A stretch of 52,704 bases of DNA, taken from NCBI GenBank assembly GCA_949297275.1, contig CASFQR010000005.1, forward strand, positions 1-52,704. Reading direction: 5' to 3'. Below the pieces are notes generated by a model that made no database searches, had not been told where the DNA came from, and saw nothing but the letters and a program-made list of their open reading frames with translations. Position numbers and translations under genes: made by a program. Below, piece by piece: positions 16,611-28,167 of this stretch (position 1 is its first letter; each line of letters opens with the position of its first letter). Source of the stretch: an uncultured bacterium. Its GTDB lineage: Bacteria > Bacillota_I > Bacilli_A > RFN20 > CAG-826.

Positions 16611-17238
16611 TTATTATTTAATTGGTGAAAAAATTATCGCAGATTTGCAAAAAAAAGACCGCAAACCACGATTATTATTGCACGCTTGCTGCGCGCCTTG
16701 TTCTTCGTATCCTCTCACTTATTTATGTCCTTATTTTGATGTGACGATTTATTACGCTAATTCAAATATTTATCCGCAAGAAGAATATTTAAAAAGACTT
16801 AATGAACTAAAGAGATTCTTAAAAGAATTTGAAAAGAAAGAAGGATTTCATATTGATTTAGTCATTCCGCCATATAATTTAGATGATTACCAAGACTTTT
16901 TAGCTAATTATATAGAATATCCAGAAGGATCACTTCGCTGTTTTTTATGCTATGAAAAAAGAATGGATGAATCTTATGAATATGCCTCTAAAAATCATTT
17001 TGATTATTTTACGACTACCTTAAGTGTCTCGCGTTTTAAGAATTCTTTAAAAATAAATGAAATTGGAGCTAAATTAGAGAAAATCTACCCCAATACTAAA
17101 TATTTTTATAGTGATTTTAAGAAAAATAATGGCAATTTGATTGTCAAAAAAATGAAAGAAGAATATTCTTTATATCAGCAGCAATATTGTGGCTGCAAAT
17201 ATTCGCTTTTAGAAAGAGAAAAACATCTTAAAAAATGA
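16597..17238 (+). CDS. queH: Epoxyqueuosine reductase QueH
   Basis: About 213 residues. QueH (former DUF208) is the non-cobalamin enzyme that reduces epoxyqueuosine to queuosine in tRNA. It shows the cysteine patterns of the family: HACCAPCSSYPL at 29-40 (C31, C32, C35), CFLCYEKR in the middle, and YCGCKYSL near the end, which together hold the metal and iron-sulfur centres. TLSVSRFKNS is another family block. I chose the ATG at 16597 inside the end of queA; the ATG at 16594 or a TTG at 16573 are possible. No ribosome site is present, so translation is probably coupled to queA. It completes a tgt-queA-queH set and overlaps the next gene by four bases. Confidence 0.93.
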   Translation: MAKINYYLIGEKIIADLQKKDRKPRLLLHACCAPCSSYPLTYLCPYFDVTIYYANSNIYPQEEYLKRLNELKRFLKEFEKKEGFHIDLVIPPYNLDDYQDFLANYIEYPEGSLRCFLCYEKRMDESYEYASKNHFDYFTTTLSVSRFKNSLKINEIGAKLEKIYPNTKYFYSDFKKNNGNLIVKKMKEEYSLYQQQYCGCKYSLLEREKHLKK

Positions 17239-18596
17239 AATTTTTATTCCGCATGTTTGCTAAAATCACTGGAGCGCCATGCTTTTATTTATTTTTAAGA
17301 TTAAAAAAATATCATCTTAATCCGTGGCAAAAAGTCAAATTAAATAAAGAAGGTGCTATTATAATTGCCAACCATACTTCAACCGCTGATTTCTTTATTT
17401 TACTCTTAGCATTCTGGCGAAAATATGTCCATATGTTAATCGGTGAAGATTTTTACCGTAAAAAGTCTTGGGGCACAATGCTTAATCTATGCGGGGCTAT
17501 CCAAGTTAAACGTAATTTACACGATATGTCTTTTATGGGCGAGTGTTTAAAAATTTTAGAAAAAGGCGGCTATATTGGTTTATTCCCTGAAGGTCGCTTT
17601 AATAAAGGTCATAATCTAAATCCTTTTCAACCAGCTGTTGTTTATCTAGCGTTAAAATCTAATAAGCCAATTATTCCTACTTATATTGAAAATAACGCTG
17701 GCACTAAAAAGAGATCGCGCATCATCATTGGCCAAAAGATTTATGTTCGCGATTACATTAAAACTAACAATCCTTCTAAAGAAGAAATTGCTGAATTTTT
17801 GCATCTATTAGAAGGTAAAGTCAACGAATTAAAAAAGCAATTACGCGTTTATAAAAGTGTGCCAGTTTATGGTTATGTGAATCCTCATTGGTGGCTCTTA
17901 GAAATTGTGCGTCTAATCTTTATTCCCTTGACTTGCATCGTCTTCCCAGCAAAGTTTCATTATTTAGATGGCGCGACAAGAAAAAAAGATTTAAACATTA
18001 AAGGTGGTGGACTCGTTTTATCTAACCATCGAACTTTCTATGATCCACCAGCTATTATGATTCATTTCGGCTATCGTCGCGTGCATGTGATTATGGCCGA
18101 GGACGCAACTTTTAAATTTAAATGGTTTTTTAAAGGGATTGGTTGCATTATTTATCACCGTCAACATGGTGCGAGCGATCCGCGTTGTTTTATGACCGCA
18201 ATTAATTATCTCCGTGGTCATGGAGTAGTCGCACTTTATCCTGAAGGTCACTTAACTCGCGGTAAGAAGATGTTGCCTTTAGAAGATGGGGCAGCTTATT
18301 TTGCTATTTCTGGCAATGCTCCAATTTATTTTTATTACATGAAATATCAACATAAGCCCTTTAAAATGAATCACATTTATGTCATTCCTCATCTTGATCC
18401 AAAAGATCATTTTACTAAAGAAGAACTTGCTGACAAAAATACTATTTCCAAATTAACAAAGATGATCGAGGATAAATTTTCCTATCTAGAAAATTATGCC
18501 TTTTCTGATCACACTAGTGACCGTAAAGATATGGATAAATGGTATAAACCAATTGAGATCAAACGCCCAGCTGAAAGTAAAAAAAATCAAAATTAA
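17235..18596 (+). CDS. Double-domain 1-acyl-glycerol-3-phosphate acyltransferase (PlsC-PlsC fusion)
   Basis: 453 residues made of two acyltransferase domains in tandem. The first has the catalytic HX4D as NHTSTAD (H47, D52) and the phosphate-binding LFPEGRF near 116-122. The second repeats this as NHRTFYD (H265, D270) and LYPEGHL near 334-340. Ordinary PlsC is about 200-250 residues with one such set. Each domain has hydrophobic stretches fitting membrane attachment (for example 224-238). PlsC acylates lysophosphatidic acid to phosphatidic acid in phospholipid synthesis. Both domains keep their catalytic pairs, so two successive or two different acylations by one polypeptide are possible. The ATG overlaps the queH stop (ATGA), so it is the last gene of the queuosine operon. 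Confidence 0.9.
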   Translation: MKFLFRMFAKITGAPCFYLFLRLKKYHLNPWQKVKLNKEGAIIIANHTSTADFFILLLAFWRKYVHMLIGEDFYRKKSWGTMLNLCGAIQVKRNLHDMSFMGECLKILEKGGYIGLFPEGRFNKGHNLNPFQPAVVYLALKSNKPIIPTYIENNAGTKKRSRIIIGQKIYVRDYIKTNNPSKEEIAEFLHLLEGKVNELKKQLRVYKSVPVYGYVNPHWWLLEIVRLIFIPLTCIVFPAKFHYLDGATRKKDLNIKGGGLVLSNHRTFYDPPAIMIHFGYRRVHVIMAEDATFKFKWFFKGIGCIIYHRQHGASDPRCFMTAINYLRGHGVVALYPEGHLTRGKKMLPLEDGAAYFAISGNAPIYFYYMKYQHKPFKMNHIYVIPHLDPKDHFTKEELADKNTISKLTKMIEDKFSYLENYAFSDHTSDRKDMDKWYKPIEIKRPAESKKNQN

Positions 18597-18639
18597 TTAA
18601 AAAGTCGAAGTTTTTCTTAGGTGACTTTCTTAAAAAAAT

Positions 18640-18653
18640 TTTAGTCGACTAAA
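18640..18653. promoter_or_regulatory. Perfect 14-bp palindrome upstream of the S10 operon promoter
   Basis: TTTAGTCGACTAAA is perfectly self-complementary. It lies 37 bases before the TATAAT box of the ribosomal operon, roughly -50 to -63 from the expected transcription start, where an activator or repressor could bind. The rest of the 18597-18690 stretch is AT-rich, with a weak AAAGTC/GACTTT hairpin (18601-18628) that might end the upstream operon. Confidence 0.4.
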
Positions 18654-18690
18654 TGTGAAATTTTAAAATTTTTTCTTGCATTATATTTTA

Positions 18691-18696
18691 TATAAT
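18691..18696 (+). promoter_or_regulatory. -10 box of the S10-spc-alpha operon
   Basis: TATAAT, preceded by A/T tracts (18658-18674) like an UP element. No good -35 hexamer is found at 16-18 bases. The predicted start near 18703 leaves a leader of about 125 bases before rpsJ. Confidence 0.55.
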
Positions 18697-18712
18697 AGTA
18701 AACTCATTTTCG

Positions 18713-18802
18713 TTAGCGCACTCTTGACTATTTGAGGTTGCTGATACACAAGCAGGCGTTGTCATGAATCTCGTATCAGGTAATTCAAATAGTAACCGCT
18801 AA
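18713..18802 (+). promoter_or_regulatory. Structured 5' leader of the ribosomal operon
   Basis: Three nested perfect stems are visible: TTAGCG (18713-18718) with CGCTAA (18797-18802); ACTATTTGA (18727-18735) with TCAAATAGT (18785-18793); CTGATAC (18741-18747) with GTATCAG (18773-18779). A possible apical pair is ACAA (18748-18751) with TTGT (18759-18762). The structure ends about 12 bases before the AAGGA ribosome site of rpsJ. In Escherichia coli the S10 leader is bound by L4 for feedback control; a comparable role here is inference. Confidence 0.6.
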
Positions 18803-18827
18803 AAGTCTGTTAGAAAGGAATTCATTC

Positions 18828-19139
18828 ATGGCAAAAGTAAAATCTATTCGGGTTCGTCTTCAAGCTTATGACCATAAGATTCTTGACTTGAGTGTTGAGA
18901 AAATCATTATGACAGCGAAGAAGACTGGGGCTAATGTGGTCGGCCCAATTCCGCTCCCGACGGAAAAACAAGTTTATACGATCTTGCGTGCTGTTCATAA
19001 ATATAAAGATAGCCGTGAGCAATTTGAAATTCGTACCCACAAACGTTTAATCGATATTACTAATCCAACGAAAGATACTGTCGAAATGCTTCGCCGTCTC
19101 GACCTACCTAGTGGAGTTGATATCGATATCAAATTATAG
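18828..19139 (+). CDS. rpsJ: 30S ribosomal protein S10
   Basis: 103 residues, the usual length. Recognisable blocks are [14 protein letters not shown] at the start, GPIPLPTEK in the middle, and [11 protein letters not shown] near 68-78. S10 is a 30S head protein and also partners NusB in antitermination. It is the first gene of the S10 cluster and follows the structured leader, with an AAGGA ribosome site at 18815-18819. Confidence 0.98.
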
Positions 19140-19156
19140 GAAGGAGATTGTCTAGT

Positions 19157-19885
19157 ATGAAAGCAATTATTGGACGCAAGATGGGCATGACAGAAGTCTT
19201 CGCTAAAGATGGCTTAATGTATGCGGTCACTGTCGTTGAAGTTCTTCCTAATTATGTCTTGCAAGTTAAGACAAAAGAAAAAGATGGTTATGATGCTCTT
19301 CAAGTTGGCATTGAAGATCAAAAAGAAAGCCGCGTCAACTCTCCTTTAAGAGGTCACTTTAAAAAAGCTGATGTCGCTCCTAAACAAATTATTCGTGAGC
19401 TTAAAGGCGATGAATTAATGAGTTATCAAGTCGGTGATGCACTTAAAGCTGATTTATTTGCGACTGGTGAAAAAGTTGATGTTATCGGCACTTCAAAAGG
19501 TAAAGGTTATTCCGGTACTATTAAACGATATGGTCATCATATTGGTCCTAAAGGTCATGGTTCGGGTTATCATCGTGGTCAAGGTTCTTTCGCAAATAAT
19601 GGCCGCTGCAATAACCGCGTTTTACCTGGTAAGAAGATGAGTGGTCATCATGGTAATTTATCATCGACCATCCTCAATCTTGCGGTGATTGAAAGCAATG
19701 CTGAAAAGAACTACATCTTAATCAAAGGCGCGATTCCTGGTCCTAAAAAAGGTATTGTCATGATTCGTTCAGCAATTAAATTCTCAAAGAAGAATACTAT
19801 CGATGTGCACGAATTAGTAGATCTTACCCCTGTTAGTGAAACTCCTGTGGAAAATGTCGCTAATAATGAAACGAAAGGAGAATAA
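19157..19885 (+). CDS. rplC: 50S ribosomal protein L3
   Basis: 242 residues from the ATG at 19157, which has AGGAG ten bases upstream; an in-frame TTG at 19148 sits on top of that site and is rejected. The L3 core includes [13 protein letters not shown] at the start and [20 protein letters not shown] near 117-137, the loop reaching the peptidyl-transferase centre. The family is normally near 209 residues; here an extra acidic C-terminal tail of about 30 residues ([16 protein letters not shown]) is present. Confidence 0.97.
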
Positions 19886-24538: not shown

Positions 24539-24847
24539 ATGAAAATACTTAAAGGTGATAAAGTTGTTGTCATTGCGGGTAAAGATAAAGGTAAAGAAGG
24601 CCTTGTCCAAGCCGTTTATCCTGCTATTAACAAAGTGGTAGTCGAAGGCGTTAATGTCCATAAAAGACATAAAAAACCCACCCAACAAAATCCTGAAGGT
24701 TCAATTGTCGATATGTATTGCCCAATTGATGCTTCAAATGTTGCCTTAGTTGATCCTAAGAGTAAAAAGGCAACGCGCGTTGGTTATCGCATTGAAAAAG
24801 ATAAGAAGGTTCGCTACGCAAAGCGTAGTGGAGCCAAAATTGACTAA
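24539..24847 (+). CDS. rplX: 50S ribosomal protein L24
   Basis: 102 residues. The KOW motif is at the start ([19 protein letters not shown]), followed by [19 protein letters not shown] and a C-terminal [17 protein letters not shown]24 starts 50S assembly. AGGAGGAAGG precedes the ATG. Confidence 0.98.
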
Positions 24848-27112: not shown

Positions 27113-27709
27113 ATGTCAAACGAAAATGAAAAAGTAGTAAAAACTGAAGAAGTTAAAAAAGAAGAAAATTCTTCTCCTAAAGGCGAAAGAGTTCGTCGTC
27201 CACATAAAGATGGCGATAATAAACCTCGCCGTCGCAATCGCCCAGCCGAAGTTAAAGAATACGAAGAAACAGTCGTTAAAATTAATCGTATTTCTAAAAC
27301 AGTACAAGGCGGTCGCCGCATGAAATTCTCCGCTTTAGTTGTCATCGGAAATCGCAAGGGTAAATATGGTTTTGCCCATTGTAAAGCTAGTGAAGTTCCT
27401 GATGCGATTAAAAAAGCTTTGGAAAAAGCAAAAAAACATACCTTCAATTTACCAATCGTTAAGGGTGATACAATTCCTCACGAAGTTGAAGGTAAATTCG
27501 GAGCGACCAAAGTTTTCCTTAAACCCGCGAAAGAAGGTACTGGGATTATTGCTGGTGGCCCCGTGCGCGCTATGTTAGAATTAGCAGGTATCCGCAATGT
27601 TGTGAGCAAAGTTTATGGCTCGCGTTCAGCGGTTAATGTCGTTAAGGCTACCCAAAACGGTTTAAAGAATTTAAAATCTTATACGAAGGTCACTTCACTT
27701 CGTAAATAA
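27113..27709 (+). CDS. rpsE: 30S ribosomal protein S5 with N-terminal extension
   Basis: 198 residues against about 165 in Bacillus. The S5 core starts near residue 49 ([20 protein letters not shown]) and includes [19 protein letters not shown] and the second domain [19 protein letters not shown]. The first 48 residues are a highly charged tail ([20 protein letters not shown]). S5 works in decoding accuracy and lines the mRNA entry. In Bacilli the next gene is normally rpmD (L30); here rplO follows after only 17 bases. Confidence 0.96.
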
Positions 27710-27726
27710 TTAGGGAGGTTAAAATA

Positions 27727-28167
27727 ATGGAATTACATGAACTTTCCTTTGTTAAAGGTGCCAAAAGAGCTTCTAAACGTGTCGGTCGTGGTTTAGGTAG
27801 TGGCTTAGGCAAAAATGGTGGATCGGGTAATAAGGGTCAATCATCGCGTAGTGGTGGTGGTACTCGCCCAGGCTTTGAAGGTGGTCAAAACCCCATTTAT
27901 CGTCGTTTACCAAAATTTGGTTTTACTAACCATGATCATAAAGTCTATGCGATTGTCAATATTTCCTCTTTAAATAAATTTGAAGATGGAACTGTGGTCA
28001 ATAGTGCTCTTCTTATCGATAGTGGTTTAATTAAAAAAGAATGCGCTGGCGTCAAAATTCTTGGTAATGGTACCCTTGAAAAGAAATTGACGGTAGTCGC
28101 TAATAAATTCTCGAAATCCGCAGAAGATGCGATTAAAAATGCAGGTGGAACAATCGAGGTAATTTAA
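27727..28167 (+). CDS. rplO: 50S ribosomal protein L15
   Basis: 146 residues, normal. The glycine-rich N-terminal region [19 protein letters not shown] (22-40), then [21 protein letters not shown] and the C-terminal [16 protein letters not shown] are diagnostic. GGGAGG precedes the ATG. Confidence 0.98.

Follow-up and report, generated by a model that had tools for sequence, protein, structure and literature searches.

The S10 leader of E. coli is a long 5′ untranslated region with a Rho-independent terminator, and uL4 acts there on both transcription and translation (PMC10931766). The L10 leader is a ribosomal-protein leader based on a kink-turn and mimics 23S rRNA (PMC4538822). PMC7247131 cites an S10 ribosomal-protein leader predicted in Firmicutes in 2007 (Yao 2007) and extends it to Clostridia; the corresponding Rfam family is RF03136, the S10-Clostridia leader. 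For the S10-spc-alpha genes of Bacillota, the literature searched establishes no controlling protein. This cluster accounts for much of the cell's ribosomal-protein genes.

Here we analyse the region upstream of rpsJ in an uncultured bacterium of the Bacillota (GTDB lineage RFN20; CAG-826). The window, that is, the whole stretch of DNA analysed, spans 52,704 nucleotides (assembly GCA_949297275.1, contig CASFQR010000005.1, forward strand). We propose that a hairpin arm at 18713–18802 is probably the autogenous leader of the S10 (S10-spc-alpha) cluster and a divergent version of the Bacillota S10 leader.

The leader arm and its setting

The original prediction placed three nested perfect stems of 6, 9 and 7 bp between the likely promoter and the ribosome site of rpsJ. 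Direct reading of 18713–18802 gives exactly these lengths and this nesting. The features are as follows.

18676–18704, + strand: inferred promoter, TTGCAT (18676–18681), 17 nt, TAAACT (18699–18704); by-eye homology with the promoters of relatives
18713–18802, + strand: whole leader arm; match to covariance model R1 at 18716–18802, E 1.1e-16
18713–18718, + strand: P1 5′ strand TTAGCG, pairing with 18797–18802, 6 bp; in relatives, P1 shows covariation in a register of its own
18719–18727, + strand: P1/P2 junction, 5′ side, CACTCTTGA, where relatives have the bulged strand of a kink-turn
18727–18736, + strand: P2 5′ strand, pairing with 18784–18793
18737–18740, + strand: conserved internal loop, 5′ side, GTTG; alignment columns 24–26
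18741–18747, + strand: P3 5′ strand CTGATAC, pairing with 18773–18779, 7 bp
18748–18772, + strand: apical region, containing the conserved GCGTTGTCATGA at 18756–18767
18773–18779, + strand: P3 3′ strand GTATCAG; letters checked
18780–18783, + strand: conserved internal loop, 3′ side, GTAA; letters checked, alignment of 99 leaders
18784–18793, + strand: P2 3′ strand; letters checked
18793–18796, + strand: P1/P2 junction, 3′ side, TAAC; kink-turn GA here in 91 of 99 leaders, eroded in the window's genus (three members)
18797–18802, + strand: P1 3′ strand CGCTAA; letters checked
18814–18819, + strand: ribosome-binding site AAAGGA; letters checked
18828–19139, + strand: rpsJ (uS10), first gene of the cluster; PF00338
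18828–33502, + strand: colinear cluster from rpsJ to rplQ, downstream of the leader; from ORF lists
24539–24847, + strand: rplX (uL24), tentatively proposed ligand; PF17136 match at 24650–24841, E 1.4e-26

The core of P2 joins ACTATTTGA (18727–18735) to TCAAATAGT (18785–18793) in 9 bp, and a wobble pair, G18736–T18784, extends it. Among 2000 dinucleotide shuffles of 18700–18827, none had three nested perfect stems that were each at least 6 bp long and summed to 22 bp, and 48 had a single perfect stem of at least 9 bp. The folding energy of the window leader is ordinary (−28.1 kcal/mol versus −26.6 ± 3.9 kcal/mol in shuffles, z −0.39). Thus, the case for the arm rests on conservation, which is analyzed below.

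The promoter elements of the window sit, by eye, in the same register as the better-looking promoters of its relatives. They were too weak to be picked up by a consensus promoter scan. The arm begins 9 nt past the end of the likely −10 element, and its 3′ end is 11 nt short of AAAGGA. Judging from the promoter position, transcription likely starts upstream of the arm. The segment from 18301 to 19200 has no terminator-like sites.

Cluster genes other than rpsJ and rplX carry the names that we take to be right from their translations. In the interval 27113–28167, rplO comes directly after rpsE, and no rpmD (L30) ORF of at least 55 aa lies between them. The spc gene order of E. coli differs from that of the window at this rpsE–rplO interval (PMC10931766). 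The gene upstream of the leader (17235–18596) encodes a 453-aa protein in which, by eye, two PlsC-like acyltransferase-type halves are joined in one chain.

Conservation and covariation of the leader

The gene rpsJ was located in 55 of 58 related genomes, and 33 rpsJ-upstream leaders of the host's order served to build a covariance model, R1. Among loci held out from the R1 training set, 21 of 23 match at E 8e-4 or better. The two misses are L041, which by eye is a decayed copy, and L056, from a 0.4-Mb genome. In the window's own genome, 18716–18802 is the sole strong match. At class level, R1 matches were obtained in 323 of 395 genomes, representing 175 of 192 genera. When genomes were instead drawn by phylum, 252 of 392 matched; this draw overlaps the class draw, as all its listed members belong to the same class. 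When regions around class matches were fetched, rpsJ lay downstream in 37 of 38, the remaining one being a 300-nt contig end.

In named Bacillales, chosen by a scan with the B. subtilis S10 protein, R1 matches all 45 of the loci examined (80 were fetched) at E 2.4e-5 or better, always about 120–30 nt upstream of rpsJ. The matching named genera include Bacillus, Listeria, Lysinibacillus, Paenibacillus, Halobacillus and Sporolactobacillus, among others.

Two families depart from this picture. Family f11, with complete genomes of about 0.8–1.3 Mb, was seen in both draws only among the listed R1 misses. Family f22 is uneven, with R1 matches from E 1e-11 to E 0.009 and no match in some genomes. The pattern in the two families suggests that strongly reduced genomes have lost the leader or let it decay. 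A separate case is the relative G048 (86% complete, 3% contaminated), where two distinct rpsJ genes are each preceded by a leader (L037 and L054); both leaders also match RF03136. The double rpsJ could be the result of contamination.

Compensatory changes in the rpsJ upstream regions of relatives, the original prediction's own check on the arm, were found in two alignments and against a tree-based null. In alignment A1, both sides change in 12 of 20 pairs, with a covariation score of 0.247 versus 0.151 when shuffled. A larger alignment, made by R1, holds 99 leaders (100 sources were given and one was missed), 33 of which are training sequences. With P1 in a register chosen from the data, both sides change in 15 of 16 pairs in these leaders. 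Pairing is found in 90.9% of cells, versus 31–46% when the strands are slid, and the score is 0.537 versus 0.234 shuffled and 0.05–0.11 slid. The paired fraction is 95.4% for P2 and 93.6% for P3. Measured against a null obtained by simulation on a tree of these sequences, and applied to the core of the leader, four pairs attain the resolvable limit of E 0.03. Two of them belong to P3, one to P2 and one to P1; the P1 pair is absent from the structure in the model. The runners-up (E 0.3 to 1) also lie in P1–P4 or adjacent to them.

Unpaired letters are conserved as well. In the internal loop between P2 and P3, column 24 is T in 99 of 99 leaders, column 25 is T in 97, and column 26 is G in 95; the apical GTTGTCAT is present in 60 of the 99. 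In alignment A2, columns 26 and 112 (window 18740 and 18780) are G.G in 93 leaders and A.A in four (E 8), and columns 23 and 119 (window 18737 and 18784) are G/U in 82 and A/C in nine (E 0.8). This non-canonical covariation is suggestive only; it hints at a defined non-Watson-Crick loop. To summarize, the leader is, as judged from these alignments, a real, conserved, covarying and functional-looking control element before the S10 operon.

The P1/P2 junction and its likeness to Kt-7

The P1/P2 junction of the leaders has C-NNN-GA in its 5′ strand, facing GA-G in its 3′ strand. This was noticed only after the alignment had been made; in that alignment, 1b.1n is G.A in 93 of 99 leaders, 2b.2n is A.G in 91, and both hold in 91. 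The adjacent C-helix pairs are standard in 94 of 99 (column pair 8–129) and in 86 of 99. By its letters, the junction in most leaders fits the PMC5061560 definition of a standard simple kink-turn. The 3b.3n pair fits the ion-alone folding rules of that source in 69 of 99 leaders and is Watson-Crick or G.U in 15. The RF03136 consensus bears the same kink-turn letters, though its structure line leaves them unpaired. The kink-turn in the S10 leader is a new observation here. No report of one, or of uL24 as a ligand, was recognised in the part of the literature that was searched; the main text of PMC7247131 contains neither "kink" nor "k-turn" nor "L24".

In the window's genus (L001–L003), the 3′ strand is UAA, versus GGA elsewhere, P2 is longer, and the C helix is interrupted in L001. 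The junctions read CTTGA with TAAC or TAAA in L001 and L002, and ATTGCG with TAAGAG in L003; that is, 2n is A, as is known from the rare Kt-23 (PMC5061560). The 5′ side in the window ends in GA like those of its relatives, but without a contiguous C helix. On account of the A at 2n and, in L001, the interrupted C helix, we do not count the window copy as a standard simple kink-turn. From these letters, the kink-turn is eroded in the window's own genus.

The rRNAs were scanned with a signature comprising a C helix of G-C then C-G, a U as third loop base, and A.G or U.G at 3b.3n; like the kink-turn itself, it was set after the alignment. Among the best three places per gene, one place only reaches the full score, in 3 of 3 23S genes, at positions 97 and 83 of 23S. 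The best 16S places score lower, 4 and 5 of 6. We take the full-score place to be Kt-7, from its sequence and position. It shows the same core letters in all 17 of the rows that could be read, which come from 15 genomes (18 loci were looked at, one of them unreadable). Like the leader junction, 23S Kt-7 places an NNN-GA strand opposite a GA-GC or GA-GU strand, beside a pyrimidine-closed C helix. The order is reversed, however, since the rRNA motif has its bulge on the 3′ strand and its NC helix on the outside. As a control, the kink-turn of the L10 leader was put through the rRNA scan and gave inconsistent places, so the Kt-7 result stands without a working positive control. Moreover, the agreement with Kt-7 may be non-specific, since kink-turns share a general consensus.

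In the window's genus, joint change of the leader and of Kt-7 in 23S was looked for and not found: the leader has lost the kink-turn G, while the 23S Kt-7 of the congener G001 is standard. The window's own assembly gave no 23S hit. Direct mimicry of 16S or 23S by the letters of the leader loops was also dropped: profiles of the apical loop, the internal-loop sides and the junction gave p 0.14–0.76 in 16 tests against 16S and 23S. Searching four rRNAs for the two sides of the P2/P3 internal loop as a pair returned 0 places.

Proposed control and relation to known leaders

We suggest that the arm acts as follows. A ribosomal protein of the cluster, when in excess over rRNA, would bind the arm. 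The bound arm, stabilised some 11 nt ahead of the ribosome site, would reduce initiation on rpsJ, and expression of the cluster would then be lowered by coupling or decay. Translational control is favoured because no terminator-like site lies in the segment surrounding the leader. Repression at this level is also the reading favoured by the position and conservation of the arm and by analogy with studied leaders, i.e., the L10 leader (PMC4538822) and uL4 (PMC10931766). In the window's genus, the protein contact at the eroded kink-turn may have been weakened, changed or lost.

As to the protein, uL24 is a tentative candidate. It is proposed because most leaders of the family have a Kt-7-like kink-turn, L24 binds Kt-7 (PMC5061560), and rplX lies in the same cluster. 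L24 is also one of the two initiators of 50S assembly (PMC2672003). Against uL24 stands the window's genus, where the kink-turn has eroded and the 23S Kt-7 of a congener is intact. The full proposal, in which uL24 would set the Bacillota S10-spc-alpha supercluster through a reversed-strand mimic of Kt-7 that has decayed in the window's genus, is rather doubtful. If true, the genus would show, as a natural experiment, how a ribosomal feedback loop is lost or re-targeted. The same leader might instead be bound by uL4, as in enterobacteria, or by another early-gene protein (uS10, uL3, uL2 or uL23), which we hold to be possible though not probable. uL4 regulates the S10 operon of E. coli (PMC10931766), the genes of these proteins are closest to the leader, and both Rfam and PMC7247131 name the leader after its first gene; the window leader, on the other hand, has no terminator-like site, and its loops have no significant letter match to rRNA.

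The kink-turn need not be the site that a regulator reads. It could be merely architectural, or be bound by an L7Ae-type protein (YbxF/YlxQ), with the regulator recognising the P2/P3 internal loop and the apical loop. The 3b.3n pairs that fit the ion-folding rules would need no protein to fold, and a SAM riboswitch kink-turn bound by YbxF is listed in the same source (PMC5061560). The internal loop, with its invariant T in column 24, and the apical GTTG are kept in the window despite the eroded kink-turn, yet no known rRNA site was found for either loop. This too is a possibility that we rate as unlikely. Much less likely is a long hairpin that merely protects the mRNA or tunes basal initiation with no protein ligand at all: no ligand is known and the folding energy is ordinary, but conserved unpaired letters and covariation, across the class and in named Bacillales, exceed what a protective hairpin needs. 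For the autogenous leader that we prefer, the Kt-7-lettered kink-turn in nearly all leaders makes uL24 a concrete candidate that can be tested, with uL4 as its rival, on the leader of B. subtilis.

The uL4-bound S10 leader of E. coli is likewise a structured leader before rpsJ, with the same operon and position. It is long and has a terminator, whereas the leader in the window is a single arm of about 90 nt with 0 terminator-like sites. The L10 leader (RF00557), a kink-turn plus UAA bound by L10(L12)4, works like the mechanism proposed here. Unlike the S10 leader, it precedes rplJ and acts by transcription attenuation in B. subtilis, and its kink-turn letters, read from the sequence, differ (ACC-GAA-GA-C / C-GA-GGU). 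RF00557 has no match in the window. Elsewhere in the window's own genome (G000), a probable L10 leader (contig C33, 3759–3876; L220) scores 39.7 bits, a little below the Rfam cut-off of 44. Rfam leader models seem to under-call in the host's lineage.

RF03136 and the window leader both lie directly upstream of rpsJ and share P2, P3 and the conserved internal-loop letters (GAGGTTGC, 18734–18741; CAGGTAATTC, 18777–18786). The RF03136 consensus has the topology and letters of the leader family (UGAA, GAGgUUGC, GGUuUUC, GGAGC, then a hairpin). R1 supplies a homology link, as it matches both the window (E 1.1e-16) and the RF03136-positive loci L109, L133, L137 and L138. After P2, RF03136 has GGAGC, where the window has GTAACCGC instead. 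RF03136 also has a conserved hairpin just before the ribosome site, which the window copy is without. Downstream of the arm there is only a weak 4-bp CTAA/TTAG hairpin (18799–18813) that shares bases with P1 and, by eye, is not kept in L003. In the window's wider family, f1, a downstream hairpin is not above chance (30 leaders, mean z −0.2). A switch between P1 and the downstream hairpin was dropped on these grounds. An outer duplex toward the mRNA 5′ end does exceed chance, with a mean z of −1.47 over 30 f1 leaders, versus shuffles of its two segments; that of the window alone is no better than shuffles (z −0.3). A possible kissing contact between an apical AGGC and a downstream GCC was seen by eye in f1 leaders.

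The gathering cut-off of RF03136 is 35.1 bits. Rfam at gathering thresholds gave no match in the window, and RF03136 gave none at E 10 in 18600–18900 or in L057, and none at E 1 in the window's own genome. Among the 58 relatives, two are above the cut-off and 28 match at E 1. In a test of ten loci from relatives, four passed the cut-off, three of them being Bacillus, Lysinibacillus and Listeria. Being below Rfam detection and without the downstream hairpin and GGAGC, the window copy counts as a divergent variant. The RF03136 structure line leaves thirteen 5′ positions and GGAGC unpaired, and P1 and the kink-turn are hence missing from it. This suggests that the public model has no place for the junction or the outer helix, and that in one order of small-genome Bacillota most leader copies score under its cut-off.

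The idea of a distinct leader RNA, raised in the original prediction, thus holds in part. The window has a structured, covarying S10-operon leader unlike that of E. coli, but one of a kind already known as a prediction (RF03136; PMC7247131). By its homology and its letters, the window copy is a divergent, lineage-specific homologue of the Bacillota S10 leader.
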